64,000 bases of DNA, from NCBI GenBank assembly GCA_024640255.1, contig JAHEFI010000001.1, forward strand, positions 248,001-312,000. Reading direction: 5' to 3'. Below the pieces are notes generated by a model. That model was not told the origin of the DNA and made no database searches. It saw only the letters and a list, made by a program, of their open reading frames with translations. How positions within the stretch are numbered: the first letter of the stretch is position 1; each line of letters opens with the position of its first letter. The position numbers were made by a program, and so were the translations under genes. Of the stretch, positions 12,929 to 51,823 are shown piece after piece. The stretch is from Bacteroidota bacterium (GTDB taxonomy: Bacteria; Bacteroidota; Bacteroidia; Chitinophagales; Chitinophagaceae).

Positions 12929-14179
12929 TTATTGAGTAACTATTGACTTAATGAAAGCAGAAGGAGTTACTCCTTTTCTTTCTTTAAAGGCGTCAATAAA
13001 TTTAGACCTTGAAGCGAATCCCGCATTGGTTGCAATTGCTTCGATAGTGAGGTTTTTAGATTCACCTTGTTCAATCATTCTACAAACATGATCGATTCTT
13101 AAATTTTTTCTCCACTCACTAAAAGTGATTTTCAATTCCTTATTAAAATAATTAGATAAAAATCTTTCTGGAATTTTTAAGTCAAATGACATTTGAGAAA
13201 GAGAGAAGTCTCTACTAATGTAGGGGCTAGTAGATAAATATTTTTCTATTATTTTTTCTATATCTTCTGTAACTGAAACATCTTTAATCTTCTTTGGCAG
13301 GTTGGATTTAATATCATCAATGATACTATCCTTACCTTTCTCTATTGTATATGATACGTTACCATACAATATCTTAGGGAATAAGAACAAGAAAATATTT
13401 TGTAAGAAAAATCCTGCACCACAAATTCCGAAATAATATTTTTCTGTAAATATTTGATAGGACGGAATACCGAAGATCGAAAACTTAATATCATACAAAG
13501 TGGACATATGCCCAATACTATTAACCGCTATTACTATTTGAATGCCACATAACAATAACATCCATTTAGTTAATATGCCATGATTTGAAGAACGAGTGCC
13601 ATGTGTTTTATATACATTATGAGCATGTCTAAAAAAGTAGATAATGGAGAATAGAGAATAGGCTAATAAATGTGCCGACCTGGAAAGAAGGATAAACTCA
13701 AAAGACACAAAATTGAAATGCAGGGTATAATTCTCTGTGACATTCACAATTTCATGGGCAATACTTGCTTTTTGATCAAATGGTAAAGTGGTAAAAGGCA
13801 GGCAATTGAAAATAATAAATACTGCAGGTAATAGATGCATCCAATCCCATTTCTCCAACTTATTATTTTCAGACAAGGTACTTTTTACATAGTAGTATAA
13901 AAATGGGCCTAAGAGGTAAGAAAGCGGCAACCAATGAACAAAGCATACTCCCTCCCAGAATAGATCCTTAGTGAAATGCAAGCCATAGTATACCAAAACG
14001 ATCAAATTGCAGCAAAGAAAGAACAGGGCCAGGAATATATTGGATCTATTTAAAGAGCTTAAATAGTAAATCAGAATAAAGGAAGTGAAAATCCCAAATA
14101 ACGGGAAGAAAATTGCCATAAGTGCGTGATTACTAGTTGAATAGACTTCAAGATAATCAAAATCAGCTAAAAATAGCAT
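12929..14179 (-). CDS. membrane-anchored AraC-family transcriptional regulator
   Basis: N-terminal multi-TM region; C-terminal AraC HTH (RIDHVCRMIEQGESKNLTIEAIATNAGFASRSKFIDAFKERKGVTPSAF). Confidence 0.9.
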   Translation of the reverse strand: MLFLADFDYLEVYSTSNHALMAIFFPLFGIFTSFILIYYLSSLNRSNIFLALFFLCCNLIVLVYYGLHFTKDLFWEGVCFVHWLPLSYLLGPFLYYYVKSTLSENNKLEKWDWMHLLPAVFIIFNCLPFTTLPFDQKASIAHEIVNVTENYTLHFNFVSFEFILLSRSAHLLAYSLFSIIYFFRHAHNVYKTHGTRSSNHGILTKWMLLLCGIQIVIAVNSIGHMSTLYDIKFSIFGIPSYQIFTEKYYFGICGAGFFLQNIFLFLFPKILYGNVSYTIEKGKDSIIDDIKSNLPKKIKDVSVTEDIEKIIEKYLSTSPYISRDFSLSQMSFDLKIPERFLSNYFNKELKITFSEWRKNLRIDHVCRMIEQGESKNLTIEAIATNAGFASRSKFIDAFKERKGVTPSAFIKSIVTQ

Positions 14180-14210: not shown

Positions 14211-14235
14211 TGTTCCAAAATGGCAAAAAGGAACA
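14211..14235. promoter_or_regulatory. dyad TGTTCC-N13-GGAACA, site in the AraC/SpoIIE divergent intergenic region
   Basis: TGTTCCaaaatggcaaaaaGGAACA; same arms and 13-nt spacer as three other intergenic sites. Confidence 0.65.
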
Positions 14236-14344
14236 AATTAGCCCCATCTATATCACTTACTGAATGGGCATAACCGTATTTTGAATATCCGATTGGAATT
14301 CTCCTAACGCTTTCAAAATCAACAAACTAATAACAAAACCTATA

Positions 14345-17300
14345 ATGAGAAGAAGCGCCATTTTCACATTATTTATTTTTATACTATTTGGTTTTTTAAA
14401 GTCAAATGCCCAGTATCCAACAGACTATACTTTTGAGAGTTATAAGATAAAGGAAGGTCTTTCGGAAGGGGGAGCATATACGGTTTTTCAGGATCATTTA
14501 GGGTATATCTGGGTAGGAACTATAGGTTTGGAGCGATTTGATGGGTATGTTTTCAAAAATTATAGATCTAGCGTTTTTGATTCCACTTCCATACCCAGTG
14601 GGCAAAAGAGAGTAATTAAAGAAGATCATCAACACAATTTATGGGTGGGGACACAAAATGTACTTTCCAAATTGAATAGAGCTACTGATTCTTGGGAAAA
14701 TTTTTCCTACGGTAGTAATGCAACCACTTTTAATGATATCTGGTTTAGTAAAGATGATAATGAAATCTTTATCACTACTTATAACGACGGTTTATTTGTA
14801 TATAATAGATTAAATAAAACATGGAAGCAATATAGTTATGGTACTAATATGTTTACTAAAATTGTTGATATCTCAAATAATGAATTGTTAATAGGTACAG
14901 TTGATGGTTTAGTAATCTTCAATAGCAAAACAAAAAAATTTGTACAAAGTTATTTAGAAACAAAATCAATACCAACTGAGACTAATTTCAGAGATTTTGC
15001 ACAAAAAGATACAAATCATTGGTATGCTTCTTCTACTAAAGGTATTTATATTTTTAGCAAACAAGATGGATTAAAACCGGCCTTTCAATATCAAAAGGGG
15101 AATGATAATTCTATTATGGATACAATTGTCACTTCTATTTACTTTAATGCTAAGAAGCAAGAATTATGGGCAAAGATTTCTAAAAAAGGGCTAGACATTA
15201 TTCATCTAAAAACGAATACTGTAACTCATTTAAACAAGGAAACATATCCTGATGAAAATTTTATAAAAAATTCTATAAATGAAATTATAGAAGATCAACA
15301 AGGAAATATTTGGCTAGCTACAAATGATGGCGTATTTAAATATAATCCAACAAGAAGGGAGATAAAAACTATTTCAGATAAAGAACCCTATGCTTTAAAA
15401 TTACCATTTACCAAAACTTGGGGAGCTTATATTGGACCTGACAAGCATTTATGGGTAGCGGGAGGCGAACATAGTGATGATGGGATTATAGAAATTGATT
15501 TAGTTTCAAAAAAATCAACCAGGTATTTCCCTAAAACAAATGGTAAATTAGGTACAGCCTGGATATTAACAGAAGACGCCCAAAAAAATACATGGGCATT
15601 TAATACTAGATTAGTTTCAAATGCAGGATTTGAATTATTCAAAAAAGATAGAAGTGATAAATTGTTTAAATCAATTGGCAATACAAATAATTTATTGAAT
15701 GTACCATTCGATAATAGCTTTGGGCAAAGTTATATAACAGAACATAAAAGCTATATTTTCGGGGGACGCTCAGCAATAGAATTAATTGATAGTAGTGGAA
15801 ATTTTGTAGGTAAGCCCTATGCCCCTTTAACTTCATTAAAGAATGAAAGAATTTATTCTTTCTATAATGTAAGCAAGGGAAAAACATATATTCTAACAGA
15901 AAAGAGACTTTTGTTATGGGATGAAGAAAAAAATTCTTTTAAAAATCTTGCACCTAAAATAGATTTTAAAGATTTTGCATTTAGGTCAGTCTTTAGCATT
16001 TTTAATTTGGTGGTATACAATGATAGTATTGTTTATGTTTCTGGATATGATTATGGTTTAGCAGAAATTAATTTAAAGCAACAAAGTAAAAAAGTTTTTA
16101 CCATTAACGATGGTATGCCAACGCAATTAGTGTATGATTTAAAGATGGATCCAGGAAATAATTTATGGATGTCATCTGATTATGGTTTAATTAGATATAG
16201 TATTCAGAAAAAACAATTTAAAAATATAACACCAAGCGAAGGTGCTCAAGGTTATGAATATAATTCATGGGCAAATTTTTTGACTAAGGATGGAGATTTT
16301 ATTTATTCCGGACAAGGAGGAATTAACTACTTCAATTATAAAGACGTAACAGATAATGAACAAAAGCCAAATATTATTATTCAAAGAGTTACTGTCAAAA
16401 ATAAAATTATACCTATTGAGTCTGTAAAGACAGATGAATCAATTGTTGTGAAATACAATGAAAATGTCTTGGCATTTGATTTTGTAGCTTTTAATTATAA
16501 GAATACTGCACAGAATAAGTACAAGTATATGATGGTCGGCTATGACAATGATTGGAGAGAATCTGGATCCCGTCATTATACTACTTATACCAACCTTCCC
16601 GCGGGAGATTATACATTTAGAGTAATTGCATCCAATAATGATGGACTTTGGAATGAAGAAGGTGCTTATGTTAAAATAAAAATATTACCAGCTCCTTGGT
16701 TTACTTGGTGGGCATATACCATTTACATATTAATCATATTATTGGGTATTTATTTATTTATTCAATACAAGCAAAAGCAACAAAAGAAGCATTTAGAAGA
16801 CGAACGTAAGAACAATGAATTGGCAGAAGCGAAAGCATTACAAGAAAGATTACTGCCAAAGCAAAACCCAGTTATAGATCATCTAGATATTGCTACCTAT
16901 TTAAGAACTTCAACAGAGGTGGGCGGTGATTATTATGATTTCTTCCAACAACCAGATGGATCTTTGTATGCCATCTGTGGGGATGCGACTGGTCATGGTA
17001 CACCCTCTGGAATGTTAGTGTCTATTACAAAAGCTGGTATCATTGGTTTACCACAAATGCCACCTAACAAAATGCTATCAGCTTTAAATACCGTTGTTAA
17101 GAAAGTGGATTTAGGTATTTTAAGAATGAGCTTAAATATTGCTTATTTAAAAGGCAATCAACTAACATTAAGTTCTGCTGGTATGCCTCCATATTTTATC
17201 TATCGTGCTCATAATCAAGCAACTGAAGAAATAATGCTGTCAGGTATACCATTGGGAAGTTTTAATAAAGTAGAATATGATGAGCTGACAACTGAATTTA

Positions 17301-17521
17301 ATAAAGGGGATATTTTGGCTATTATTTCGGATGGTTTGGCAGAAGCACCTAACGCAAAAGGCGAATTATTTGACTATCCTCAAATTCAATCAATTATTAC
17401 AGAAAATAGCCATTTGAATGCTCAGACTTTAATTGACGAGTTAATGAGTCAGGCAGATGTTTGGTTAGATGGGGCCCATAATCCGGATGATATTACCATT
17501 GTTATAATAAAACATAACTAA
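14345..17521 (+). CDS. two-component-regulator propeller/Y_Y_Y sensor with C-terminal PP2C SpoIIE phosphatase
   Basis: Propeller repeats, Y_Y_Y domain, TM, then STEVGGDYYDFF...CGDATGHGTPSGMLVSITKAG. Confidence 0.92.
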   Translation: MRRSAIFTLFIFILFGFLKSNAQYPTDYTFESYKIKEGLSEGGAYTVFQDHLGYIWVGTIGLERFDGYVFKNYRSSVFDSTSIPSGQKRVIKEDHQHNLWVGTQNVLSKLNRATDSWENFSYGSNATTFNDIWFSKDDNEIFITTYNDGLFVYNRLNKTWKQYSYGTNMFTKIVDISNNELLIGTVDGLVIFNSKTKKFVQSYLETKSIPTETNFRDFAQKDTNHWYASSTKGIYIFSKQDGLKPAFQYQKGNDNSIMDTIVTSIYFNAKKQELWAKISKKGLDIIHLKTNTVTHLNKETYPDENFIKNSINEIIEDQQGNIWLATNDGVFKYNPTRREIKTISDKEPYALKLPFTKTWGAYIGPDKHLWVAGGEHSDDGIIEIDLVSKKSTRYFPKTNGKLGTAWILTEDAQKNTWAFNTRLVSNAGFELFKKDRSDKLFKSIGNTNNLLNVPFDNSFGQSYITEHKSYIFGGRSAIELIDSSGNFVGKPYAPLTSLKNERIYSFYNVSKGKTYILTEKRLLLWDEEKNSFKNLAPKIDFKDFAFRSVFSIFNLVVYNDSIVYVSGYDYGLAEINLKQQSKKVFTINDGMPTQLVYDLKMDPGNNLWMSSDYGLIRYSIQKKQFKNITPSEGAQGYEYNSWANFLTKDGDFIYSGQGGINYFNYKDVTDNEQKPNIIIQRVTVKNKIIPIESVKTDESIVVKYNENVLAFDFVAFNYKNTAQNKYKYMMVGYDNDWRESGSRHYTTYTNLPAGDYTFRVIASNNDGLWNEEGAYVKIKILPAPWFTWWAYTIYILIILLGIYLFIQYKQKQQKKHLEDERKNNELAEAKALQERLLPKQNPVIDHLDIATYLRTSTEVGGDYYDFFQQPDGSLYAICGDATGHGTPSGMLVSITKAGIIGLPQMPPNKMLSALNTVVKKVDLGILRMSLNIAYLKGNQLTLSSAGMPPYFIYRAHNQATEEIMLSGIPLGSFNKVEYDELTTEFNKGDILAIISDGLAEAPNAKGELFDYPQIQSIITENSHLNAQTLIDELMSQADVWLDGAHNPDDITIVIIKHN

Positions 17522-18008: not shown

Positions 18009-18021
18009 AAATAAACTAACC

Positions 18022-18363
18022 ATGAGCGGATTTATTAAAAGCACAAAAGAAGCAAATCAAATTGTAATCATTGAAACAGATGGATATTTAAACAACGAAG
18101 GTGGAGAAGCTATATCTGCAATTTGTTATGAGAAAATGAGTTCAGGTCAGAACAAATTTTTGATTAATATGGCTGGAACCAAGGTGGTTAATAGCATTGG
18201 CGTGTCTATCTTAATTGAAATCATTGAGAAATTACAAGAAGTAGATGGAAAAATTGGTTACTATAATTTAGCACCAATTGTTTCTAAGACTTTTAATATT
18301 ATGGGTCTAACTAAGTATTCGACTGTTTTTGAATCAGAAGAAGCAGCAGTTAGTGGCTTATAA
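18022..18363 (+). CDS. STAS-domain anti-sigma factor antagonist
   Basis: INMAGTKVVNSIGVSILIEIIEKLQEVDGKIGYYNLAP STAS pattern. Confidence 0.88.
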   Translation: MSGFIKSTKEANQIVIIETDGYLNNEGGEAISAICYEKMSSGQNKFLINMAGTKVVNSIGVSILIEIIEKLQEVDGKIGYYNLAPIVSKTFNIMGLTKYSTVFESEEAAVSGL

Positions 18364-20480: not shown

Positions 20481-20481
20481 T

Positions 20482-21153: not shown

Positions 21154-21185
21154 AATCTCTTCGAAAAATATATTAAACGATTGCT

Positions 21186-23051
21186 ATGAAAAAATTCTTT
21201 ATTTTATGTCTATTCATTGTGCCATTCAATTATTTAAATGCGCAGTATTATAAAGACCTAGAATTCAATTTATCTGATTCTTTGAAATTAGTTGAAAATT
21301 CAAAGTCTTATGAAAAAAAGATTGATATTTTAATGAATATTGGTATGCGATACCAATGGGCAAAAGGAGATACAGCAATTTTATATTTTAATAAAGCAAT
21401 AGATGTTGCAAAACAAAATAATGATCAAATATTAGAGTTCATTGCAATTTCTAATATATCAATGACTTTAAATCAGACAATTGGAAATTATCCTTTAGGC
21501 TTACATTATGCAACAGAGTCAATAAAACTTGCAAATAAAATTTCAAATTTTTCTGACAGTTTAAGGGGATGGTATTATTATAATTTATCTTTTAGTTACG
21601 GTTATTTACATAATAAAGAGCTTGCCACAAAAAATATACTTGGACGTTGGCCAATTAGTAGAAGATTAAAACCAGGTTTTGCAGATGGAAATATAGGTAA
21701 AGCCTATTATATTATTGAAGAATATGATTCTGCGACAAAATACAATAGATCGGTAATAGATTATTATAATGAATTTCCGTATGAAAAAAGATGGAGTGGC
21801 GCATATATAGTTGGTGGAGATATATTTAGAGCATTAAAGCAATATGACTCAGCAATTATATATTACAAATTGGCAATTCCGTTGACATTTATTAGTTCTT
21901 TATATAAAGATTATTTAGAAGCAGCTTCTGGGTTAACTAGTGCTTATGCTGCGACTAATCAATACGATTCTGCAATTTATTATGGAACACAGGTTGTAAA
22001 GTATTCTGAAAAATTCACCTTTACTGAAGGTTTATTGAATGCATATAAGGTATTGTATCAAATGTATAAGAAACAAAATAGACTTGATAGTTCTTTTAAA
22101 TACCTTGAAAAATCACAACAATTAAGCGAACAATTATATAATTCTTCAAAAATAAATGAGGCACAGAATATTGCACTTGGAGAGGAGACAAAAGCAAAAG
22201 AAATGGCAGAACAAGAAGCTATTCAAAGAAGAAAACTAATAATAACTTCAATATGTTTACTACTATTTGCAATTGGCGTGTACTTGAATGGCAAGAGAAA
22301 GCAAAGAGAAAGATTAAGAAAGATAGAAGAAGATAGAAAAAATAATGAATTAGCTGCAGCCCGAGATTTACAACAAAGTATGCTTCCTAAGGAGAACCCT
22401 AAGCGAGTAGATTTAGATATTGCTACTTTTATAAGATCATCAACCGAAGTGGGGGGTGATTATTACGACTTCTTTCCTCAAGCTGATGGATCCATATTTA
22501 GTGTATGTGGAGATGCCACTGGGCATGGAGTTACTTCAGGAATGATGGTATCTGTTACTAAGGCTGGATTAAATGGAATAAGCCCAGTTAAGCCTAATAA
22601 GATATTACAAAGATTAAATGGTGTCGTTAAACGAATCGACCTAGGTACATTAAGAATGAGCTTAAATATTGCCGAAATCACTCAAGATGAGGTTTATTTA
22701 AGTTCAGCTGCAATGCCTCCAATTTATCTTTATAAGGCTTCAACTAAAACAATTGAAGAGTTTATGAATAATGGCTTACCACTTGGAGGATTAAGAGATG
22801 AGGAGTTTATATTAGAAGCAAGAAATTTTGAGTCAGGTGATGTATTGGTTCAATTGTCAGATGGTTTACCAGAGGCGCCTAATTCTAAAGGAGAGATGTA
22901 TGATTATGATAGATTAAGAAGTTTGATATTAGCATCGGTTCATTTATCATCCAAAGAAATCATTGATGTTTTAATGAAATCTGTAGATGAATGGATGGAA
23001 GGCAAACATAATCCGGATGATATAACATTGGTGGTTACAAAGAAAAAATAA
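21186..23051 (+). CDS. TPR-SpoIIE PP2C phosphatase, copy 1
   Basis: TPR-like N-terminus, TM, STEVGGDYYDFFPQADGS...CGDATGHGVTSGMMV. Confidence 0.9.
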   Translation: MKKFFILCLFIVPFNYLNAQYYKDLEFNLSDSLKLVENSKSYEKKIDILMNIGMRYQWAKGDTAILYFNKAIDVAKQNNDQILEFIAISNISMTLNQTIGNYPLGLHYATESIKLANKISNFSDSLRGWYYYNLSFSYGYLHNKELATKNILGRWPISRRLKPGFADGNIGKAYYIIEEYDSATKYNRSVIDYYNEFPYEKRWSGAYIVGGDIFRALKQYDSAIIYYKLAIPLTFISSLYKDYLEAASGLTSAYAATNQYDSAIYYGTQVVKYSEKFTFTEGLLNAYKVLYQMYKKQNRLDSSFKYLEKSQQLSEQLYNSSKINEAQNIALGEETKAKEMAEQEAIQRRKLIITSICLLLFAIGVYLNGKRKQRERLRKIEEDRKNNELAAARDLQQSMLPKENPKRVDLDIATFIRSSTEVGGDYYDFFPQADGSIFSVCGDATGHGVTSGMMVSVTKAGLNGISPVKPNKILQRLNGVVKRIDLGTLRMSLNIAEITQDEVYLSSAAMPPIYLYKASTKTIEEFMNNGLPLGGLRDEEFILEARNFESGDVLVQLSDGLPEAPNSKGEMYDYDRLRSLILASVHLSSKEIIDVLMKSVDEWMEGKHNPDDITLVVTKKK

Positions 23052-23072
23052 ATTATTTTATAAACGATTGCT

Positions 23073-24965
23073 ATGAAAAAAATTATTTTTATTTTATTAG
23101 GTATTACATTTTTATCAACTTGTTTAAATGCACAGTTTGATAATAACTTTCATTTTGGTGATTCTATTAAAATGGCAGAATCGATTCAAGATAGTAAAGC
23201 TAAGACTGATTTATATATTAAAATAGGTAGTAATTATGTTTACTATAAGGGAGATTCTAGTTTATATTACTTAAATATTGCAAAAGATATAGCTCAAAAA
23301 AATAATCTTTATGATAGATTAATATATGCTGATTTCTATATTTCAAATGTATATAAAGGTGTTTTAGGAAACTATCCCCTAGGAATTTTTTACGCTTTTG
23401 AGATGTTAAAAGATTATGATTTGGTTAAAGAACACAATTCAAAAATAGAAAACATTTCTTTCAATAACGTTGCTTCAGCGTATTTTACTATTGCAGATGC
23501 ATATTCATATTTAGGAAATAAAGAAAAAACAAAGGAGTATATTAATAAGTTTTTTTCTACAATTAGATTAGACACTTTGAATACTACTTTACAAGGAAAT
23601 TATATTAGCAATACAAGTAAAATATTTTTTCAAATCAGAGAATTGGATAGTGCTTATAAATATATTCAACAAGGAATTGCAATAAATAATACATTTTCAA
23701 CTAAGTGGAGCTTTCCTTTCATGATGATGGGAGATGTGCTTTTAGCAAAAAAAGAGTATCAAAAAGCTATTTACAATTATAAAGCAGCTATACCATTGGC
23801 TATTCCATGGAAATTTTATAAAGATGTTTTTCAATGTAATTATGGGATTGCTTCTGCATATTTTAATTTAAACAAAATTGACTCTGCGATTTATTATGCA
23901 ACAGAAGTACAAAAAATGTCTAAAACAATAACATTTACTGAGGGTTCATTAAAAAATAGTTTACTTCTTTATTCTTTATATAAAATAAAAAATAATAAAG
24001 ATAGCGCTTTAAAGTATATCGAAATGGCTGAAGATCTTAGAAATAATATTTTTAATAATATTAAGGCTAATGATGCTCAAAATATGGCTATTAATGAAGA
24101 AGTTAAACAAAGAGAATTGAGAGAGCAAAAAGCCAAGCAACAAAAAATATTAATTATAACAGGAATTTGCGCAATTCTTTTGGCTATTGGAATTTATCTA
24201 AATGGTAAACGTAAACAAAAAGAACGTTTAAGACAAATTGAAGAAGAAAGAAAGAACAGTGAACTAAGGGCTGCAAGAGATTTACAACAAAGTATGCTTC
24301 CAAAAGAGAATCCTAAAAGATCAGATTTAGATATTGCTACTTTCATAAGATCATCAACCGAAGTGGGGGGTGATTATTATGACTTCTTCCCACAGGCAGA
24401 TGGCTCTATATTTAGTGTGTGTGGAGATGCCACTGGGCATGGAGTTACATCTGGAATGATGGTATCCGTTGCTAAAGCTGGATTAAACGGAATTAGCCCA
24501 GTGAAACCTAATAAAATTTTACAAAGATTGAACGGTGTTGTTAAGAGAATAGACCTTGGCACACTTAGAATGAGTTTAAATATTGCTGAAATTACACAAG
24601 ATGAGGTTTATTTAAGTTCGGCTGCAATGCCTCCAATTTACCTTTATAAGGCTTCAACGAAATCTATCGAGGAGTTTATGAATAATGGGTTGCCTTTAGG
24701 TGGATTAAGAGATGAAGAGTTTGTATTGGAAGCAAGAAATTTTGAATCAGGTGATGTATTGGTTCAATTGTCAGATGGTTTACCTGAGGCGCCTAATTCT
24801 AAAGGAGAGATGTATGATTATGATAGATTAAGAAGTTTGATATTGGCATCGGTTCATTTATCATCTAAAGAAATCATTGATGTGTTAATGAAATCAGTAG
24901 ATGAGTGGATGGAAGGAAAACATAATCCAGATGATATCACATTGGTTGTAACTAAGAAAAAATAG
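23073..24965 (+). CDS. TPR-SpoIIE PP2C phosphatase, copy 2
   Basis: Catalytic domain nearly identical to copy 1; diverged sensor. Confidence 0.9.
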   Translation: MKKIIFILLGITFLSTCLNAQFDNNFHFGDSIKMAESIQDSKAKTDLYIKIGSNYVYYKGDSSLYYLNIAKDIAQKNNLYDRLIYADFYISNVYKGVLGNYPLGIFYAFEMLKDYDLVKEHNSKIENISFNNVASAYFTIADAYSYLGNKEKTKEYINKFFSTIRLDTLNTTLQGNYISNTSKIFFQIRELDSAYKYIQQGIAINNTFSTKWSFPFMMMGDVLLAKKEYQKAIYNYKAAIPLAIPWKFYKDVFQCNYGIASAYFNLNKIDSAIYYATEVQKMSKTITFTEGSLKNSLLLYSLYKIKNNKDSALKYIEMAEDLRNNIFNNIKANDAQNMAINEEVKQRELREQKAKQQKILIITGICAILLAIGIYLNGKRKQKERLRQIEEERKNSELRAARDLQQSMLPKENPKRSDLDIATFIRSSTEVGGDYYDFFPQADGSIFSVCGDATGHGVTSGMMVSVAKAGLNGISPVKPNKILQRLNGVVKRIDLGTLRMSLNIAEITQDEVYLSSAAMPPIYLYKASTKSIEEFMNNGLPLGGLRDEEFVLEARNFESGDVLVQLSDGLPEAPNSKGEMYDYDRLRSLILASVHLSSKEIIDVLMKSVDEWMEGKHNPDDITLVVTKKK

Positions 24966-24968
24966 AGT

Positions 24969-26867
24969 ATGAAAAAAATTGCATCTTTTTTAATTGTAAC
25001 ATTAATTGTTAGTCCATTATTTTCTCAAGAAAATATTAATGAATATAATAATTTATCATTTACCGAAAAAATTAAGGATAGTATTGGTATTATAAATAGT
25101 ATGTCAAATACAAAAGAAAAAGCACTTTATTTTGACAAATTAGCTACTTATTATTTTTATTCTAATTCAGACTCTTCTTTAAAGTATATGTTAAAGTCGG
25201 AAAGTTTAGCTAAAAAGCTCAACTTGCCAATACTTGCTGCTGACAATCATGTTTATTTAAGTATGTTGTATAGAATGATGAAAAGTAATTATTCTACTTC
25301 TTTATATTATGCAAATTTGGCCAAAAAAGAAGTTGAAGTAGAAAACATTACAGATTCTTCGTTTCAAGCAAATTTATTTATGCAATTTTTAGGTATTTAT
25401 GCAAGTCTTGGTAATTTCTCCAAAGTTAAAAAAATGCTTAATGAAAATGCATATCAAATTATGAATCCTGGTAAAACCTCGGAGTCAATTTGGACAACAA
25501 TAGGTATGATCGGTGTTTATTATAATCAAATAAATGAATTTGATTCTGCTATCAAATATTCTTATTTAGCGCTAGACCTAAATAAAAGCCTCCCTTTAGC
25601 AAAGAAGTGGGGATTCCCTTATTACATTCTCGGAGACAGTTATTTAAAAACTAAACAATATCAAAAGGCAATTGATATACTTAATGAAGGAAAAGAAATT
25701 ATTTTATCAAATAATTTCGAAAAAGATATTGCTGAATCTTATGAAATAATAGCAGATGCAAATTTTCAACTTAATAATATAGATTCCGCTATTTATTATG
25801 CAAATTTATCTTACCAAATGAGCGAAAAAATTGCATATGTTGATGCGATTTTAAAATCAAGTACTTTATTGTCTTCTATTTATAATAAAATAAATAAAGT
25901 TGATAGCGCGTATAAATATTTGTCTATTAGTAACAAAATAAAAGATTTACTAGCAGATAAGTCAAAATTAAATGAAATAGAAAATATCACTTTAAATGAA
26001 GAAGTTAGACAACAACAAAAAGATGAAGAGGATTCAAATAGAAAAAAACTTATCATTGGATTTGGTTTAACCTTCATTATTGGGTTTACTTGGCTAACTG
26101 TATACAATAGAATGAAGCAGAAGAATAAGATTCGACAAATAGAAGAAGATAGAAAAAACAATGAATTAAAAGCAGCGAGAGACCTTCAATTAAGTTTTCT
26201 ACCTAAAAGTCTCCCTAATAGAAATGATTTAGATATAGCAACTTTTATTAGATCTTCTACAGAGGTTGGCGGAGACTATTATGACTTCTTTCCTCAGGAT
26301 AATGGGAATATATACTCCATTTGTGGTGATGCCACTGGTCATGGAGTAACTTCTGGAATGATGGTCTCAATAACTAAGGCAGGTTTGAATGGTATTGATG
26401 CACTAGCTCCCAATATAATACTTCAAAAATTAAATAAGGTTGTCAAAAAGGTAGACCTAGGCACATTAAGAATGAGTTTAAATATTGTTGAAATAAGCAA
26501 TAATGAATTGAATATCAGTTCAGCTGCTATGCCACCTATTTATCTTTATAAGGCTAATTCAAACACCGTAGAGGAAATTATGAATAGCGGCCTTCCTTTA
26601 GGAGGCTTAAGACATGAAGATTTTGATCAATTAACAAGATCTTTTGAACCTGGTGACGTGCTTATTCAGCTTTCTGATGGACTTCCAGAAGCTCCTAATA
26701 AAAGCGGCGAAATGTATGATTATGACAGATTGAGATCTTTAATTCAAACTGCTTGCAGCCAATCAGCACAAGAAATCATAAACACATTAGTTCAATCAGT
26801 TGATTTATGGATGGGTGGTTCTCATAATCCAGACGATATTACCTTGGTGGTGATTAAGAAGAAGTAA
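24969..26867 (+). CDS. TPR-SpoIIE PP2C phosphatase, copy 3
   Basis: Same architecture; STEVGGDYYDFFPQDNGN. Confidence 0.9.
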   Translation: MKKIASFLIVTLIVSPLFSQENINEYNNLSFTEKIKDSIGIINSMSNTKEKALYFDKLATYYFYSNSDSSLKYMLKSESLAKKLNLPILAADNHVYLSMLYRMMKSNYSTSLYYANLAKKEVEVENITDSSFQANLFMQFLGIYASLGNFSKVKKMLNENAYQIMNPGKTSESIWTTIGMIGVYYNQINEFDSAIKYSYLALDLNKSLPLAKKWGFPYYILGDSYLKTKQYQKAIDILNEGKEIILSNNFEKDIAESYEIIADANFQLNNIDSAIYYANLSYQMSEKIAYVDAILKSSTLLSSIYNKINKVDSAYKYLSISNKIKDLLADKSKLNEIENITLNEEVRQQQKDEEDSNRKKLIIGFGLTFIIGFTWLTVYNRMKQKNKIRQIEEDRKNNELKAARDLQLSFLPKSLPNRNDLDIATFIRSSTEVGGDYYDFFPQDNGNIYSICGDATGHGVTSGMMVSITKAGLNGIDALAPNIILQKLNKVVKKVDLGTLRMSLNIVEISNNELNISSAAMPPIYLYKANSNTVEEIMNSGLPLGGLRHEDFDQLTRSFEPGDVLIQLSDGLPEAPNKSGEMYDYDRLRSLIQTACSQSAQEIINTLVQSVDLWMGGSHNPDDITLVVIKKK

Positions 26868-26869
26868 AC

Positions 26870-28738
26870 ATGAAAAAAGCAACAATTTTCTCTTTATTAT
26901 TTTTTTGCTTCATAAGCAATGCAACAGCACAATTTAAAGAAAAAAAAATAATTAATGTTAATGATTCCCTTCAATTGATTGAGAGAAGCACATCATATGT
27001 CAAAAAGCATACGATTTTTATGAATTTGGGGAAGTATTATCAATATTATAAAGGTGATAGTGCCATAGGGTACTTTTTAAAAGCTGTAAATATTGCTAGA
27101 GAAAATAACGACCAAGTAAATTTATACATCTCTCTAAGTTATTTATCCATTACTGCTAGGCAGACTGTAGGAAATTATCCTTTAGCCTTAAGTTCAGCCA
27201 TAGAGTCTTTAAAAGTTGCCAATTCAATAAAAAATAAAGAGGATATTAAGAGAGAGTGGTGCTTGCAAAATTTAGCACAAACTTATGCAAGCTTAAATAA
27301 TAAAAATTTAGCATTAAAATATATTAATGAAACTTGGCCGATTTATGAAAGATCAAATCCGGATTTTAAACCCTTTGAATTAGCAAGAACATATTTTGAG
27401 ATCAATGAATATGACTCTTCCTATATCTACATAAAAAAAGCAGTTGAATTTGAAAATAAAAAACCTTTTGAAAAAAGAATAGGTACAGCATATATTGGAA
27501 TGGCCAATGTTTATAGTGCAAGAAATCACTTTGATTCTGCAATTATCTATTATAAAATATCAATTCCTCATTCTTATATTAAGTCTGTTAGAAAAGATTA
27601 TCTGGAAGCGACTTCTGGAATGGCCAAAGCATATTTTAACCTAAATCAAATTGATTCTGCAATACATTATAGCAATGAGGTTGTAAAAAATTCGATTGAT
27701 TTTACTTATAATGAAGGTCTATTAATTTCATTTAATATATTATACAAGTCATTTAAAATCGGCAATAAAAGTGACAGTGCTTTAAAATATTTAGAAAAGT
27801 ATGAACAGTTAACTGAAAAATTACATAATGCTTCAAAAAACAATGATGCTCAAAATTTAGCTCTATTAGAGGTTGCCAAAATAAAGGAATTAGAAGAAGA
27901 AAAAGCATTACAACAAAAAAAGCTAATTACTGTATCTATTATTTTAATTCTTTCATTGATTTTAGTTTTTATAAATGGAAAAAGAAAACAAAAATTGTTA
28001 ATACAAAAAAATGAAGAAGCACGAAAAAATAAAGAATTACAAGCTGCAAAAGATTTACAATTAAGTTTATTGTCTAAAAAAAATCCACAAAGATCAGATT
28101 TAGATATAGCTACTTATATAAGATCGTCAACTGAGGTAGGTGGTGATTATTATGATTTTACTACTTTATCTGATGGATCTATTATTTCTATTTGTGGAGA
28201 CGCAACTGGTCACGGTGTTGCTTCTGGCATGATGGTATCAGTAACTAAAGCGGGTTTAAAAGGAATTGGGATAGAACAGCTATCTGCAACTTTATATAAA
28301 TTGAATAATGTTGTAAAAGAAATGAATTTAGGAGTATTGCGAATGAGCTTAAATATGGCTAAAATTTCTACAAATTCTATTGAATTATGTTCTGCCGCAA
28401 TGCCACCCATTTATTTATATAACAATACTACTAATTCTGTCGAAGAGATATCGGAACAAGGCCTTCCATTAGGTGGGTTGAAAAATGCTGATTATGAAAC
28501 AATTACAAGATCTTTTGAGCCCGGTGATTTGCTTATTCAGCTTTCTGATGGACTTCCAGAAGCTCCTAATAAAAGCGGAGAAATGTATGATTATGACAGA
28601 TTGAGGTCCTTAATTCAAACTGCTTGCAGCCAATCAGCACAAGAAATCATAAACACATTAGTTCAATCAGTTGATTTATGGATGGGTGGCTCTCATAATC
28701 CAGACGATATTACCTTGGTGGTGATTAAGAAGAAGTAA
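26870..28738 (+). CDS. TPR-SpoIIE PP2C phosphatase, copy 4
   Basis: Same architecture; STEVGGDYYDFTTLSDGS. Confidence 0.9.
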   Translation: MKKATIFSLLFFCFISNATAQFKEKKIINVNDSLQLIERSTSYVKKHTIFMNLGKYYQYYKGDSAIGYFLKAVNIARENNDQVNLYISLSYLSITARQTVGNYPLALSSAIESLKVANSIKNKEDIKREWCLQNLAQTYASLNNKNLALKYINETWPIYERSNPDFKPFELARTYFEINEYDSSYIYIKKAVEFENKKPFEKRIGTAYIGMANVYSARNHFDSAIIYYKISIPHSYIKSVRKDYLEATSGMAKAYFNLNQIDSAIHYSNEVVKNSIDFTYNEGLLISFNILYKSFKIGNKSDSALKYLEKYEQLTEKLHNASKNNDAQNLALLEVAKIKELEEEKALQQKKLITVSIILILSLILVFINGKRKQKLLIQKNEEARKNKELQAAKDLQLSLLSKKNPQRSDLDIATYIRSSTEVGGDYYDFTTLSDGSIISICGDATGHGVASGMMVSVTKAGLKGIGIEQLSATLYKLNNVVKEMNLGVLRMSLNMAKISTNSIELCSAAMPPIYLYNNTTNSVEEISEQGLPLGGLKNADYETITRSFEPGDLLIQLSDGLPEAPNKSGEMYDYDRLRSLIQTACSQSAQEIINTLVQSVDLWMGGSHNPDDITLVVIKKK

Positions 28739-28755
28739 TTAATTAATTAATTAAT
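28736..28755. repeat. (TAAT)5 microsatellite at convergent stop codons
   Basis: taattaattaattaattaat starting at the stop of SpoIIE copy 4. Confidence 0.85.
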
Positions 28756-29506
28756 ACTCTTTATTATTTAATTGTTTAAGTAGCTTGTTATTTAACTCTT
28801 TTGCTATTTGCATTACATATAAGTAATAATCGCATCTTCCCATCATTTTATTAACAGACAGTCGTAGTTCTGGAGCTGTTATTTTACTTCTAAATGATGG
28901 AATTGTTTTAAAATCTTCTAATTGCTCAGCGTTAGATCTTGTTTGAAAAGGTAATTTTGCTGTAGTGTCTAGGATAAAGCCAAATGAAAAGGATTTTCCC
29001 ATAAATTCATTCATATCTTCATCTAATACAGTATTATTTATGGCAAGTTTACCATATAAAGCTTCATAATATTGTGCAATTAACTTTTTAGTCTCATTAT
29101 TTTTTATAAAACTTAAACTCCCAGAAGAGATAGTGTTTTTATAGGAAGCATTATTAATGAATAGTCCAATTCCATATCTGGTGTTTACATATGTCTTAAT
29201 AATAGAGTCTACTAGTTCATTTTCATTTATTTTTTGATGACTATAGGCAAATGAAAAATCTTTAATCTTTTCAAATTGTTTTAATGCACTAGTGTATTCT
29301 TCAATTCTATTGTCAATTTCACTAGAATCTTGTCTTAAATCATCAATCATGGCCACCAAATTTTGATTTTTATGATTCTCAATAACTTGATGCTCTCTAA
29401 TATTTTCAGCAAAAAATCCTAGTGTAACAGCTGCAAAAAGCATAATAAACTCAGTTATATACTCTTTCCACTTCTTAGGATGATGAGAATGATGATGTAC
29501 TTCCAT
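28751..29506 (-). CDS. MEVHH-family single-TM protein (subtype HHHSHHPKKWKEY), array 1 gene 4
   Basis: MEVHHHSHHPKKWKEYITEFIMLFAAVTLGFFAENIREHQV. Confidence 0.75.
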   Translation of the reverse strand: MEVHHHSHHPKKWKEYITEFIMLFAAVTLGFFAENIREHQVIENHKNQNLVAMIDDLRQDSSEIDNRIEEYTSALKQFEKIKDFSFAYSHQKINENELVDSIIKTYVNTRYGIGLFINNASYKNTISSGSLSFIKNNETKKLIAQYYEALYGKLAINNTVLDEDMNEFMGKSFSFGFILDTTAKLPFQTRSNAEQLEDFKTIPSFRSKITAPELRLSVNKMMGRCDYYLYVMQIAKELNNKLLKQLNNKEY

Positions 29507-29507
29507 T

Positions 29508-30281
29508 TTAGTGATTTAATTCTTCTTGTATAATTTTAATTAACTCTATAGCTTTTGCTTTTTGATCAATAGCCATTGCTCTGTATACAAATAATTGTCC
29601 TGTATATATAAAAGTTTTATTTGATAGTTTAAACATGTCAGCAGGATTTTTACTTAAAAACTTACTTCCTGTTTTAACATAAATCTTATTTATTTTATCT
29701 TTTTTTAAAGTTACAATTGATTTGCCATTTAATACATTGCCGGAATAGTCGAAAAGTCTTGCATACATCACATTGCTTCTTTCAGTTAATACATCTTGAA
29801 ATGTGCTATTAAAACCCTCTTCTTGTCCCTTAATTCTGTCTTGCCCTTTTATATAATCCTTGATTTTATCATTTATAACTTTGTTTTTAATTAATCGAAA
29901 TCCTCCAGCATTTTTTAATTGGTCAATTGTTCCATTTGCGTATTGTAAAATCACTTCAGTGTCAACCATGTTTTCTGCCCAAATATATGCACTGTCTGCA
30001 CTTTTTACTTCCCAATTGTCTTCGTAAACTATATCTGATAATTTTCGTCCATAATCATATACCTCTTTCATATTAATTTCTTTACGACTAATATCATCTA
30101 TATCAATTTTCAAGTCTGTTAGCATGCTAACTAAATAGTCATGCTCTTTATGTCTTTCTGCTCTGTATTCAAGATAAGATTCTGCCATAAATCCAGCAAA
30201 AACAGCCATAAATAGCATAAAGAATTCTGAAATATACTCTTTCCATTTCTTAGGATGATGAGAATGATGATGTACTTCCAT
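29508..30281 (-). CDS. MEVHH-family single-TM protein (subtype HHHSHHPKKWKEY), array 1 gene 3
   Basis: MEVHHHSHHPKKWKEYISEFFMLFMAVFAGFMAESYLEYRAE; TAATG overlap with the upstream gene. Confidence 0.75.
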   Translation of the reverse strand: MEVHHHSHHPKKWKEYISEFFMLFMAVFAGFMAESYLEYRAERHKEHDYLVSMLTDLKIDIDDISRKEINMKEVYDYGRKLSDIVYEDNWEVKSADSAYIWAENMVDTEVILQYANGTIDQLKNAGGFRLIKNKVINDKIKDYIKGQDRIKGQEEGFNSTFQDVLTERSNVMYARLFDYSGNVLNGKSIVTLKKDKINKIYVKTGSKFLSKNPADMFKLSNKTFIYTGQLFVYRAMAIDQKAKAIELIKIIQEELNH

Positions 30282-31009
30282 TATTTATATTTTGCATTAA
30301 TCAATTTGACTGCCTTATTACTATATAAGTTTATTGAATCAATATCTCCAAGAAAGCCTATATAGGCCAATTTAAAGTTAGTGATTGTGTAAGCTACTTT
30401 TTTTACAACTAAAGGATTTGGAGGTTTAATTCCCTTTTTATCTGGAATTTCATCCATTTTAAAGGATAATATATCATTATAATATTCATGTTCTGTTAGA
30501 TCTTCTAACTGCTCCTTAAGCTTACTTCTTAAGCGTACAGTTTCGGCTTCAACAGTTTTATAATCAAGAATAAAAAAATTAATTTTTGAAATATAATATG
30601 CTAATTCTGTATTCTCCTCATTTCTAAAATAACCTTTTGCATCAGCCTCGTTTCTGCTTTTATCATTTTGGTTAAAATCCCAATAAGCTAAATGATTAAA
30701 AAGTAATCGATAATATAATTTTTGATTGATTTCGTTTGGATCCATTTTTAATATAGGAAAAACGCTGTCACATGTAGCAAACTTTTTCTCATAATCTTGC
30801 TGATGAAATTCTAATTGTTTTAAATCTCTTTCAATATCCAAGGCAACAATCTTCATTAATTCTGTCTTCTTTTCATTCTCTGCTAGGTGTTCTCTTATAT
30901 TTTCGGCAAAAAAACCAAGAGTTACAGCCGCAAACAACATTACAAATTCAATAATGTATTCAGACCATTTCTTTTTATGAGTAGGATGGTGTGGGTGATG
31001 TACTTCCAT
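30281..31009 (-). CDS. MEVHH-family single-TM protein (subtype HHPHHPTHKKKWSEY), array 1 gene 2
   Basis: MEVHHPHHPTHKKKWSEYIIEFVMLFAAVTLGFFAENIREH; TAATG overlap. Confidence 0.75.
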   Translation of the reverse strand: MEVHHPHHPTHKKKWSEYIIEFVMLFAAVTLGFFAENIREHLAENEKKTELMKIVALDIERDLKQLEFHQQDYEKKFATCDSVFPILKMDPNEINQKLYYRLLFNHLAYWDFNQNDKSRNEADAKGYFRNEENTELAYYISKINFFILDYKTVEAETVRLRSKLKEQLEDLTEHEYYNDILSFKMDEIPDKKGIKPPNPLVVKKVAYTITNFKLAYIGFLGDIDSINLYSNKAVKLINAKYK

Positions 31010-31737
31010 TATTTATATTCTTTATTAATAAGGTCAATCGATTTTTTAGCGTAAACAGACATAGAATCAATATTCATGATATAAACATCACTACATAATT
31101 TAAGCATTGAAAATTGATAATTCATTTTATTAGCTGTTTCGGAGTCTATTTTTTTAATCCCTACTTTATTGGGTATTTCAATAGCTGGAAATCTCCATTG
31201 TTTGTCAAATAATTTATGATCAGTGTATTCAGGGAATAGTGTTAAAATAGTTTTGTCGGCCTCGTTCTCAAAAGCTTCCATATCTTTCAAATCGTTTTTA
31301 AAGAAATTGAATTTAGAGATATAGTAGTTTAATTCAGTATTTTCTTTTTCTGTTAAATAGCCTTTAGCTTCTGCTTCATTTCTACTTTTTTCATTTGGAT
31401 TAAAATGCCACCACCAAATTGTTTTTAATATTAAAGCATAAAATGCTTTTTGATCCACTTTTGATTGATCACCATTATTTAATGCAATCAAACTATCGCA
31501 ATTTTTAATTTTTTCTTGACTAAAGCTTTTATGAAATTCAAATTGTTTAAGATCGGCTTCTAAATCATGCGCTACTGTTTGTAATAGTTCTTTTTTCTTT
31601 TCTTTTTCAGACATGTGTTCTCTTACATTTTCAGCAAAGAAACCTAATGTTACGGCTGTAAATAACATTACAAATTCAATAATGTATTCTGACCATTTTT
31701 TCTTGTGTGTAGGGTGGTGTGGGTGATGTACTTCCAT
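31009..31737 (-). CDS. MEVHH-family single-TM protein (subtype HHPHHPTHKKKWSEY), array 1 gene 1
   Basis: Start trimmed to MEVHHPHHPTHKKKWSEY by comparison with paralogs. Confidence 0.75.
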   Translation of the reverse strand: MEVHHPHHPTHKKKWSEYIIEFVMLFTAVTLGFFAENVREHMSEKEKKKELLQTVAHDLEADLKQFEFHKSFSQEKIKNCDSLIALNNGDQSKVDQKAFYALILKTIWWWHFNPNEKSRNEAEAKGYLTEKENTELNYYISKFNFFKNDLKDMEAFENEADKTILTLFPEYTDHKLFDKQWRFPAIEIPNKVGIKKIDSETANKMNYQFSMLKLCSDVYIMNIDSMSVYAKKSIDLINKEYK

Positions 31738-31806
31738 TTTGTAGATTTTAACAGCACTTAAGATATTGTTAGTTAAGCATTTAGTCAACTATATTTTGCA
31801 CTGTTT

Positions 31807-31831
31807 TGTTCCTAAATTTCAAATTGGAACA
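31807..31831. promoter_or_regulatory. dyad TGTTCC-N13-GGAACA upstream of MEVHH array 1
   Basis: TGTTCCtaaatttcaaattGGAACA, about 70 bp upstream of the first MEVHH start. Confidence 0.7.
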
Positions 31832-31887: not shown

Positions 31888-32244
31888 ATGAACACAAAAC
31901 CTACAACAGTAGAGGAATATATTAAATCATTTCCTAAATCAACACAGGTCTTATTAAAGCAAGTAAGAGCTGTTATTAAAGAAATTGCTCCAGAGGCAGA
32001 AGAGCTTATAGCATATGGTATGCCGGGGTATAAATTGAATAAAAAGCCTTTAGTGTATTTTGCTGGATATGAAAAACATATTGGCTTTTATGCCACACCC
32101 AATGGACACGAAAAATTCGCAAAAGAACTTTCTAAATACAAACAGGGTAAAGGTTCGGTACAATTTCCCATTGAAGAACCAATGCCTTTAGCATTAATTA
32201 AAAAGATAGTTGTCTTTAGGGTCAAAGAAAACTTAAAGAAGTAG
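31888..32244 (+). CDS. DUF1801-family protein
   Basis: TTVEEYIKSFPKSTQVLLKQVRAVIKEIAPEAEELIAYGMPGYKLN. Confidence 0.85.
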   Translation: MNTKPTTVEEYIKSFPKSTQVLLKQVRAVIKEIAPEAEELIAYGMPGYKLNKKPLVYFAGYEKHIGFYATPNGHEKFAKELSKYKQGKGSVQFPIEEPMPLALIKKIVVFRVKENLKK

Positions 32245-43776: not shown

Positions 43777-43801
43777 TGTTCCCAAATATTATATTGGAAC
43801 A
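43777..43801. promoter_or_regulatory. dyad TGTTCC-N13-GGAACA upstream of ester cyclase-like lipoprotein
   Basis: TGTTCCcaaatattatattGGAACA, about 80 bp upstream of the ATG at 43881. Confidence 0.65.
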
Positions 43802-43880
43802 AATTCCGGCTATTTGAAGCTAGAATTTTGACTTTTTGGATATATTTTGTTCGCTCAATCTAAACCAAATTCAAAAAAAA

Positions 43881-44363
43881 ATGAAAAAGCTATTATCGGT
43901 TCTTTTTGTGTCAACAATGCTATTTGCATGTAATAATGAAGCTGCAAAAAAAGAACAGGTTGAAAATGAGAATGTAAAATTCTATGATCATGTATGGGAT
44001 GTAGTAATTAACCAAGGGAATGTTAATTACCTAGATACAGCCTATGCCGCAGATGTGGTTTTACATACTGTACCTGAAATTAAAGGCAAGGATAGTGCAA
44101 AGGCATACTATGCTAATTATGTTACTGGTTTTAGCAATAGACAATTTATTGTAAAAGAGATCTTTGCAAAAGGAGACAAAGTGGTAAAATACTGGCAGTT
44201 TAAAGGAACTCATACTGGTCCATTCTTTGGTATTCCTGCAACAGGAAAGACAATTGATGTGATTGGATGTACAATTGCAAAAGTGGTAGATGGTAAAATT
44301 ACAGAAGAACAAGACTTCTTTGATAACTACGCTTTCTTACAACAAATTGGACTTATTAAATAA
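43881..44363 (+). CDS. SnoaL-like/ester cyclase-family lipoprotein
   Basis: Lipobox MKKLLSVLFVSTMLFACNNE; GPFFGIPATGKTIDVIGCTIAKVVDGKITEEQDFFDNYAFLQQIGL. Confidence 0.8.
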   Translation: MKKLLSVLFVSTMLFACNNEAAKKEQVENENVKFYDHVWDVVINQGNVNYLDTAYAADVVLHTVPEIKGKDSAKAYYANYVTGFSNRQFIVKEIFAKGDKVVKYWQFKGTHTGPFFGIPATGKTIDVIGCTIAKVVDGKITEEQDFFDNYAFLQQIGLIK

Positions 44364-45754: not shown

Positions 45755-46519
45755 TTACTTTATTTCAGATCTTAAAAGTCTTATAAGGGCGTCGTTACTT
45801 TTTTTAGCTCGCTTCAAATTTGTTCTATATACAAATAGGTAGTTGTAATATTTTTGAACTTCATAAATAAATTCATCAGATCTCAATAAATTTTTTGTTT
45901 TATCTAAGTCGAACATAAAATTTTGAAATCCATCTGGGTCATTTAAAACGTACTCGTTTGAAAAATTTTGTTTTTCTCTTATAAGTTTTCCTATACCAAT
46001 TGGGTAGTAGTTATTAAAAACAGTACCAACTTGATCAAAAAATTCATTAGTAGCTTCAATTGCTTTAAAATCTACTTCATAATATGTAGCCAAAGTGTCT
46101 TTTAAATCACCTTCTTCTAAATTACCTAGTAAGCCACTTGACTGAAGATTTTTAAATGAACTATTGTTCACATATAATGTTGTAGAATAAGCAATAAGCT
46201 TTGGAATTGTTTTGAAAGAGTCAATTAGCTGAGCTTGACTTATTTTATTGGTCTTAGCAAGGTATAAAAGATTATTTATCTTATTGAATCTTAAAATGCA
46301 GCTATCTTCAACTGCAAGCACATGTTCAATTTCTATTGAGTCCGCAAGTAAATCTTTTAAAATAGCTATTTTATTTTGTTCAATCTTATGATTAATTACT
46401 TGATGTTCTCTAAGATTTTCGGCTAGAAATCCTAGCGTTACCGCTGCAAATAACATGATGAATTCTGTAATATATTCTTTCCAGTTTTTTGGTTTGTGAC
46501 TGTGGTGATGTACTTCCAT
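45755..46519 (-). CDS. MEVHH-family single-TM protein, array 2 gene 3
   Basis: MEVHHHSHKPKNWKEYITEFIMLFAAVTLGFLAENLREHQV. Confidence 0.75.
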   Translation of the reverse strand: MEVHHHSHKPKNWKEYITEFIMLFAAVTLGFLAENLREHQVINHKIEQNKIAILKDLLADSIEIEHVLAVEDSCILRFNKINNLLYLAKTNKISQAQLIDSFKTIPKLIAYSTTLYVNNSSFKNLQSSGLLGNLEEGDLKDTLATYYEVDFKAIEATNEFFDQVGTVFNNYYPIGIGKLIREKQNFSNEYVLNDPDGFQNFMFDLDKTKNLLRSDEFIYEVQKYYNYLFVYRTNLKRAKKSNDALIRLLRSEIK

Positions 46520-47304
46520 TATTTATATATTGGTTCAATTAATTTTAATAGTTGTGCGCCTTGATCTCTTAGCTCTATCTGAAATCTTAAACCCACTGTA
46601 GTTCTTTCTTGTCTTAAATGCCATGCTTTGGCTAAAGTTTCAATTTGCTCATTAGTTAGTTTTGTAGTTTCTAAAGATTTTGTAATTCCATCTTTAAATT
46701 TGGAATAATTTTCATAACGAAATTTATGGAAAGTGGAATCTAATTTATTTAACAATTTTAATTCTTCCTCACTATGATATTTAAAAAAAGATATTGGTAA
46801 AATTTTGGTAATTGTAGGTCTAAATTCTGCATTATATTGCTCAAGTTCAACCATTGATCTTGTTTCTGCTTGACTTGCATTTTCTTCATACCTTAATATA
46901 GCATTTAACACCTCCTTATTTTGAATATATCTTAATGATCCTGAATTTTTCATTTCTTCAAATATTGTTTTTTTATTGGAGAAACGATATAACCATAAGT
47001 CAATACTTTCAGATAATTTTTTTAAGTCAACCTTTTGTTTTTCAAAACCATATATTAAAGATAATGAGTCATAATAGTTTACAGTTCTTTGATTGTTAAT
47101 AATTATTGAATCTAATTGTTTTTGATTTTCTTTTACATCCAATATGAAAGATTTAATAAATTCTTCTGATCTTTCACTTTCAGTATGTTTTTCTCTAACA
47201 TTTTCAGCAATAAAACCCATACTGACTGCCAGAAACAACATCAGAAATTCGGTTAAATATTCTTTCCATTTTTTGGGATGATGCGAATGATGATGTACTT
47301 CCAT
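46519..47304 (-). CDS. MEVHH-family single-TM protein, array 2 gene 2
   Basis: MEVHHHSHHPKKWKEYLTEFLMLFLAVSMGFIAENVREKH; TAATG overlap. Confidence 0.75.
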   Translation of the reverse strand: MEVHHHSHHPKKWKEYLTEFLMLFLAVSMGFIAENVREKHTESERSEEFIKSFILDVKENQKQLDSIIINNQRTVNYYDSLSLIYGFEKQKVDLKKLSESIDLWLYRFSNKKTIFEEMKNSGSLRYIQNKEVLNAILRYEENASQAETRSMVELEQYNAEFRPTITKILPISFFKYHSEEELKLLNKLDSTFHKFRYENYSKFKDGITKSLETTKLTNEQIETLAKAWHLRQERTTVGLRFQIELRDQGAQLLKLIEPIYK

Positions 47305-48032
47305 TATTTATTATTTTCTATTAAATTTATTGCTTTGTTTGCATAATATGACATTGAATCCATATCAACTGTAAGTCCATCAAAAACACCCTTGGTTGTT
47401 GCTAAGAAAATAATTGCTTTTTTGCTAGCTTCTGGTTTTATTGTTGTTATCCCCATTTTGCTTTCTAAAGGTGGTGATGGGTATCTCCAAATTTTATAAA
47501 CAATTTCTTCATCTGCAATTTGAGGAAGAATTTCATTGATAAATAATTTTGCCTGTTCTTCTAATATTTTATCTCCTTGGATATAGTCATTCATCCAAAA
47601 ATTATATTTCTTTATGAAATAAGCTAGATCTCTATTTTCTTCTTTAAAGAAATACCCCTTTGATTCAGCATCTTTAATACTTTTATCATTAGGGTAAAAA
47701 AAATAATTTGGAGCATAATTCATTATATCCCTATAATAATCTTTTTGGTCTACTTTGTTTGGATTTGTATTTAATATAATTTTAATACTATCTGAAAACT
47801 TATTTTTTTCTGATGCCAAACCTTTTAGTGTTTGTAATTGCTCTAAATCACTTCTTAAATCTTTAGCAACCACATGTAGTAATTCTTTAGCTTTATTTTC
47901 CTCTGCTAAATGTTCTCTTATATTTTCAGCAAAAAAGCCTAATGTTACAGCAAGGAATAGCATAAAAAATTCCAAGAAATATTCAGACCATTTCTTTTTG
48001 TGTGCGGGATGGTGTGGGTGATGTACTTCCAT
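47304..48032 (-). CDS. MEVHH-family single-TM protein, array 2 gene 1
   Basis: MEVHHPHHPAHKKKWSEYFLEFFMLFLAVTLGFFAENIREH; TAATG overlap. Confidence 0.75.
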   Translation of the reverse strand: MEVHHPHHPAHKKKWSEYFLEFFMLFLAVTLGFFAENIREHLAEENKAKELLHVVAKDLRSDLEQLQTLKGLASEKNKFSDSIKIILNTNPNKVDQKDYYRDIMNYAPNYFFYPNDKSIKDAESKGYFFKEENRDLAYFIKKYNFWMNDYIQGDKILEEQAKLFINEILPQIADEEIVYKIWRYPSPPLESKMGITTIKPEASKKAIIFLATTKGVFDGLTVDMDSMSYYANKAINLIENNK

Positions 48033-48099
48033 TTTTGTATTTATTGTCTAATTAAGAAACGTTTATTTAGCCAATAAAGTCAAATAAACAGTAAGTAAT

Positions 48100-48124
48100 T
48101 GTTCCAATTTAGATAAAAGGAACA
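48100..48124. promoter_or_regulatory. dyad TGTTCC-N13-GGAACA upstream of MEVHH array 2
   Basis: TGTTCCaatttagataaaaGGAACA, about 68 bp upstream of the first MEVHH start. Confidence 0.7.
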
Positions 48125-51775: not shown

Positions 51776-51787
51776 ATTTTAAGATTT

Positions 51788-51815: not shown

Positions 51816-51823
51816 TGAAAAAA

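Follow-up and report, generated by a model that had tools for sequence, protein, structure and literature searches.

The window, by which we mean the whole 64,000-nucleotide stretch of DNA that was analysed, contains four copies of the inverted repeat TGTTCC-N13-GGAACA, which lie beside a gene for a membrane-embedded AraC-family protein, a gene for a SpoIIE phosphatase, a gene for a secreted lipoprotein and two arrays of paralogous membrane proteins. The features are listed below in the order in which they occur, with the -7 boxes as predicted from their position and sequence.

12929..14119, minus strand: proposed regulator, a membrane-embedded AraC-family protein of 396 aa with 7-8 TM helices followed by an HTH_18/AraC DNA-binding domain
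14148..14155, minus strand: -7 box TATCTTGA of the AraC gene, 55 bp from dyad 1
14211..14235, no strand: dyad 1, candidate operator between the AraC gene and the propeller-SpoIIE gene, its position upstream of the AraC gene being kept at the orthologs of many relatives
14277..14284, plus strand: -7 box TATTTTGA of the propeller-SpoIIE gene, 41 bp from dyad 1
14345..17521, plus strand: putative target, a two-component-propeller, Y_Y_Y and SpoIIE phosphatase protein, first gene of a partner-switching cluster
28751..31737, minus strand: putative target, MEVHH array 1, four paralogous single-TM helical proteins
31758..31765, minus strand: -7 box TATCTTAA of MEVHH array 1, 41 bp from dyad 2
31807..31831, no strand: dyad 2, candidate operator upstream of MEVHH array 1 (minus strand), with the DUF1801 gene on its other flank
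31888..32244, plus strand: possible target, DUF1801 protein on the other flank of dyad 2, with TAATTTAG at 40 bp
43777..43801, no strand: dyad 3, candidate operator upstream of the SnoaL-like lipoprotein gene; orthologous SnoaL genes carry the dyad in many relatives
43843..43850, plus strand: -7 box TATTTTGT of the SnoaL gene, 41 bp from dyad 3
43881..44363, plus strand: putative target and core regulon gene, a secreted SnoaL-like (NTF2 fold) lipoprotein (Pfam SnoaL 1e-31)
45755..48032, minus strand: putative target, MEVHH array 2, three paralogs
48052..48059, minus strand: -7 box TTTCTTAA of MEVHH array 2, 40 bp from dyad 4, with one mismatch to TAnnTT
48100..48124, no strand: dyad 4, candidate operator upstream of MEVHH array 2 (minus strand)

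The original prediction described four sites with perfect 6-bp arms and a spacer of exactly 13 nt, and these were found at the coordinates claimed and are all intergenic. The distances of about 68-70 bp that it gave to the MEVHH arrays were measured as 70 bp (start codon at 31737) and 68 bp (start codon at 48032), the placement of one dyad before the secreted SnoaL-like lipoprotein gene and of another between the AraC and propeller-SpoIIE genes was likewise correct, and the extended form AAT(A/T)TGTTCC...GGAACA(A) is borne out once the better strand is chosen for each site. The four perfect dyads of the window compare with none in 100 dinucleotide shuffles, and no perfect arm pair with any spacer of 0-40 other than N13 was found in the window. 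The draft genome from which the window comes, that of a freshwater Bacteroidota bacterium (2.19 Mb, 86.6% complete), has one more perfect match, which lies in a multicopper-oxidase ORF and has an unrelated spacer. Given that this single extra match is coding, the signal is local in this genome, with the four sites lying within 34 kb. When the dyads of relatives were aligned, the full motif read AAWW-TGTTCC-WWWWT-N3-AWWWW-GGAACA-WWTT, in which the middle favours G or C. Two related loci (L133 and L134) have two perfect dyads 32 bp apart (positions 1129 and 1161) between a SnoaL gene and the next gene, an arrangement that has the form of a tandem operator.

The AraC gene had been described only as the neighbour of one dyad; the adjacency stands, and the protein is now regarded as the likely regulator. 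Its start codon, formerly placed at 14179, was moved to 14119 (MAIFFPLFG...) since in several relatives the reading frame ahead of that methionine is interrupted by stop codons and the alignment supports this position; the distance between the gene and dyad 1 is thereby 92 bp. An AraC-type double HTH is present at the C-terminus (Pfam HTH_18 1.1e-15, HTH_AraC 1e-10), the DNA-binding domain covering about residues 284-396, and the best structural matches obtained with Foldseek were AraC-type DNA-binding domains (YesN, AraT, AraC and MarA). The N-terminal part has six clear hydrophobic segments and was modelled by AF2 with 7-8 long helices (mean pLDDT 73). Foldseek gave weak hits of GPCR-like topology for this TM bundle (E above 0.02, query-normalised TM-score at most 0.40), which were not counted as evidence of homology. 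In the ortholog alignment the HTH stretch GFxSRSKFIDAFKE is nearly invariant from Flavobacterium to Chitinophagaceae, as would be expected if the recognised sequence is conserved. These genomes encode many membrane-embedded AraC proteins, with as many as nine homologs in one assembly, and a TGTTCC dyad was found upstream of none of 18 paralogous membrane-AraC genes (24-34% identity).

The original prediction had called for the N13 spacer to be compared with other spacers and for the dyad to be followed to orthologous loci. In a first genus sample of 60 further genomes, counted as 20 with and 41 without an ortholog of the AraC gene, N13 sites were present in 20/20 and 14/41 genomes, respectively. 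The genomes with the ortholog had 74 N13 sites versus 29 sites summed over ten other spacers in the range N8-18, and those without it 16 versus 98, so that N13 dominated only where the regulator was present (Fisher's Exact Test, p = 1e-18, a value that overstates independence because related genomes share ancestry; the distant loci described below do not depend on it). The dyad was also searched for together with a TAnnTT box 40-42 bp downstream, a promoter element described below, in the whole genus (147 genomes), and the combination was found in 33 of the 40 genomes with an AraC ortholog and in 3 of the 107 without. Among hold-out genomes that had not been used in forming the idea the corresponding numbers were 16/20 and 2/66. 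Seven genomes of the genus have the ortholog and lack the strict N13-plus-box signature, and the four of these that were looked at show N14 spacing, a dyad at AraC, a dyad with one mismatch, or a target whose box departs from the strict pattern. In 398 further Bacteroidota genomes no AraC ortholog was detected at E 1e-60, and the same genomes gave 6 single dyad hits only, most of them coding-like.

Orthologs of the AraC gene occur in Sediminibacterium-like and other Chitinophagaceae MAGs, in Aquirufa antheringensis, Sandaracinomonas limnophila and other Cytophagaceae, and in Flavobacterium MAGs. The 49 AraC loci of relatives contained 59 perfect N13 dyads and 9 N14 dyads, and no other spacer below 38. 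In many of these loci, including those of Aquirufa and other Cytophagaceae, the AraC gene is immediately preceded by the dyad, and the same arrangement is found in four Flavobacteriaceae loci (Flavobacterium, 45-48% identity). Sites were present in 12/12 distant genomes with the ortholog that were tested. The dyad is kept at orthologous AraC and SnoaL loci in three orders, whereas the genes around AraC change completely between lineages, secreted NTF2-like proteins being the most constant neighbours. Taken together with the spacer comparison, this supports the proposal that one dimeric regulator links the genes, and on the sequence evidence the four dyads are real control sites and members of a conserved regulon. 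The regulator is most probably the AraC-type protein beside the site at 14211, as judged from its co-occurrence with the dyad.

A different DNA-binding protein might read the dyad, with araC merely one of its targets, given that an operator adjoining a regulator gene is no proof of binding by that regulator, and that in three genomes (G009, G538 and G588; dyad loci L253, L254 and L255) the dyad adjoins NTF2/SnoaL-like genes and no AraC ortholog was detected. These three cases may result from missing assembly, from loss of the gene or from another regulator. We consider such a protein improbable: it would need to have the same patchy distribution as AraC (33/40 versus 3/107) across three orders, no other regulator gene was found as a conserved neighbour of the AraC loci, and in three of the four Flavobacteriaceae genomes the sole perfect N13 site is the one at AraC, the fourth having two more, both within ORFs. 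The SnoaL ORF of G588 is short (102 aa) and perhaps decaying.

Around the loci with the ortholog 119 unique perfect N13/N14 sites were collected, of which 9 fall within predicted ORFs; two or three of these are probably over-extended ORFs at real promoters. Where a gene points away from the dyad, its start is in most cases 65-85 bp from the dyad edge, the commonest distance being 75 bp. After reduction of redundancy 81 gene-side instances remained, and TAnnTT began 40-42 bp below the dyad in 54 of them (rotation null mean 2.7, maximum 9) and at exactly 41 bp in 39, 40 bp being less frequent. The standard deviation of the position relative to the dyad was 0.6 bp for the box and 6.1 bp for the start codon, which indicates that the position of the box is tied to the dyad rather than to the gene. 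The box is the sole conserved downstream element in the dyad-aligned promoters, in which no conserved -33 element was found. One relative (G032, locus L176) has a box identical to TATCTTAA at 41 bp, before an MEVHH gene. The sigma-A -7 element of Flavobacteriia is located at -12 to -5 (PMC9723704). With the box 41 bp below the dyad, the dyad would thus span about -78 to -54, which is the expected position of an activator, fixed and upstream of -33. By the same placement (PMC9723704), transcription is predicted to start about 53 bp below the dyad, at about 43855 for the SnoaL gene, 31753 for MEVHH array 1, 48047 for MEVHH array 2 and 14289 for the propeller-SpoIIE gene.

The AraC promoters of relatives differ from those of the targets in that the dyad lies at variable distance from the -7 box, at about 8, 22, 55 or 76 bp. 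Where this distance is about 8-22 bp the dyad would overlap the -33 region, which could be taken to mean that the same AraC protein uses the dyad as a repressor operator. For the regulon as a whole this is unlikely: at the target promoters the -7 box follows the dyad at a fixed 40-41 bp, which leaves the dyad upstream of the -33 region, and this geometry, with no conserved -33 element, is what activation and not occlusion predicts. Given that the AraC gene itself carries a dyad at variable distance from its own promoter, autoregulation is likely and may be of either sign. The original prediction also offered an ECF or other alternative sigma factor, on the grounds that GGAAC resembles ECF -35 elements. 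This was rejected and is now barely conceivable, since the arms form a perfect two-sided dyad and the only element conserved downstream is the TAnnTT -7 box of sigma-A type, at a distance of 41 bp where a -35/-10 pair would be 16-18 bp apart, so that GGAAC cannot be a -35 element. A dispersed repeat, an RNA element or chance, which four near-identical copies within 34 kb might suggest, is hardly credible given that the spacers and flanks differ and only arms and geometry are conserved, that the shuffles gave no copy and the 398 genomes without the ortholog only 6 single hits, that the dyads are consistently placed 41 bp above -7 boxes, and that no Rfam match was found at the dyads (the window holds two tRNAs only).

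The dyad is thus, very probably, the operator of the membrane-embedded AraC-family one-component regulator encoded at 12929-14119, which would activate genes for exported proteins. When 67 distinct target proteins were scanned, SnoaL_2 was found in 30, SnoaL in 20 and DUF4440 in 17 (the sets overlap), and many of the SnoaL/NTF2-like targets have a lipoprotein signal. The other targets include a 263-aa lipoprotein, TPR proteins, MFS transporters, sulfatases, a PhyH dioxygenase, alpha/beta hydrolases, propeller-SpoIIE phosphatases and MEVHH proteins. The predicted core of the regulon is the small secreted NTF2/SnoaL-like proteins, and the MEVHH arrays and propeller-SpoIIE phosphatases appear as lineage-specific additions. 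The dyad precedes MEVHH genes in G000 (twice), G034, G032 and G505, and in G024 at 217 bp; since this is seen in several genomes, the MEVHH genes are repeated but lineage-restricted members of the regulon. It also precedes propeller-SpoIIE homologs at three loci (L095, L139 and L140). The DUF1801 gene is a weak case because its leader would be only about 4 nt; a homolog adjoins a dyad in G538, but is only 47 bp away.

The window encodes eight MEVHH paralogs (28751-31737, 42532-43335 and 45755-48032) with an invariant MEVH N-terminus and one long TM helix followed by a helical bundle (AF2 pLDDT 88). None matched a Pfam family above the cut-off, one had a weak match to DUF6090, and the model had no meaningful PDB match. 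The genes that follow the propeller-SpoIIE gene (17592-28738) encode a kinase-like ATPase, a STAS protein, an adenylate-cyclase/HD protein, a small membrane protein and four TPR-SpoIIE paralogs; the region looks like a partner-switching cluster and is possibly co-transcribed from dyad 1. Beside MEVHH array 2 (48361-54052) lie three tandem FG-GAP-type repeat proteins, two of which have closely related N-terminal halves.

In the proposed mechanism a signal would presumably be sensed by the 7-8 TM domain, and two AraC-type DNA-binding domains would bind the halves of the dyad head to head, the half-site AAWWTGTTCCWWWWT of roughly 17 bp being of a suitable size for a single AraC monomer. From the dyad, at about -78 to -54 and centred near -66, the AraC dimer would recruit sigma-A RNA polymerase to promoters with a conserved -7 box and no visible -33 element, which would correspond to class I-type activation. 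The output would be exported NTF2/SnoaL/DUF4440-like lipoproteins as the core and, in some lineages, the MEVHH arrays and the propeller-SpoIIE partner-switching cluster.

Several features are shared with known systems. As in the AraC/XylS family (AraC, MelR, RhaR and ToxT), there is a C-terminal double HTH, an operator beside the regulator gene and a promoter-proximal site, but where those proteins have a cupin or another soluble domain at the N-terminus, this one has a bundle of 7-8 TM helices. Many sites of the AraC family consist of direct repeats or of one asymmetric element, whereas the halves of the 25-bp dyad proposed here as operator face each other head to head across a constant N13 spacer. 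The combination of a membrane protein and a DNA-binding domain in one chain, likely acting from the membrane, resembles ToxR, TcpP and CadC. Those proteins combine one TM helix with a winged-helix domain of the OmpR type, unlike the multi-TM domain and AraC-type domain found here. The geometry, with a dyad centre near -66, upstream of RNA polymerase, and a weak or absent -33 element, is that of CRP-type class I promoters, although the sigma factor is the Bacteroidota sigma-A with its own -7 consensus and the DNA-binding protein is unrelated. In the open-access literature (subscription journals may differ) no described operator or regulon was found for a membrane-embedded AraC protein, and nothing was found there on SnoaL with AraC in Bacteroidetes, on TGTTCC/GGAACA with AraC, on DUF6090 or on Aquirufa with AraC.

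These results give one membrane AraC regulator a candidate 25-bp operator, a promoter architecture that is precise to one base pair and a list of putative targets, and link the MEVHH, secreted SnoaL and DUF4440-like proteins, all families of unknown function, in a single control circuit. Aquirufa antheringensis and Sandaracinomonas limnophila are cultured hosts in which the regulator could be tested. As a more speculative suggestion, which we regard as possible though doubtful, a seven-helix membrane receptor fused to an AraC domain may sense a hydrophobic extracellular compound and activate transcription directly from the membrane, with the secreted NTF2/SnoaL-like output handling the same compound. 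If true, this would be a one-chain receptor-to-promoter signalling system of freshwater Bacteroidota.
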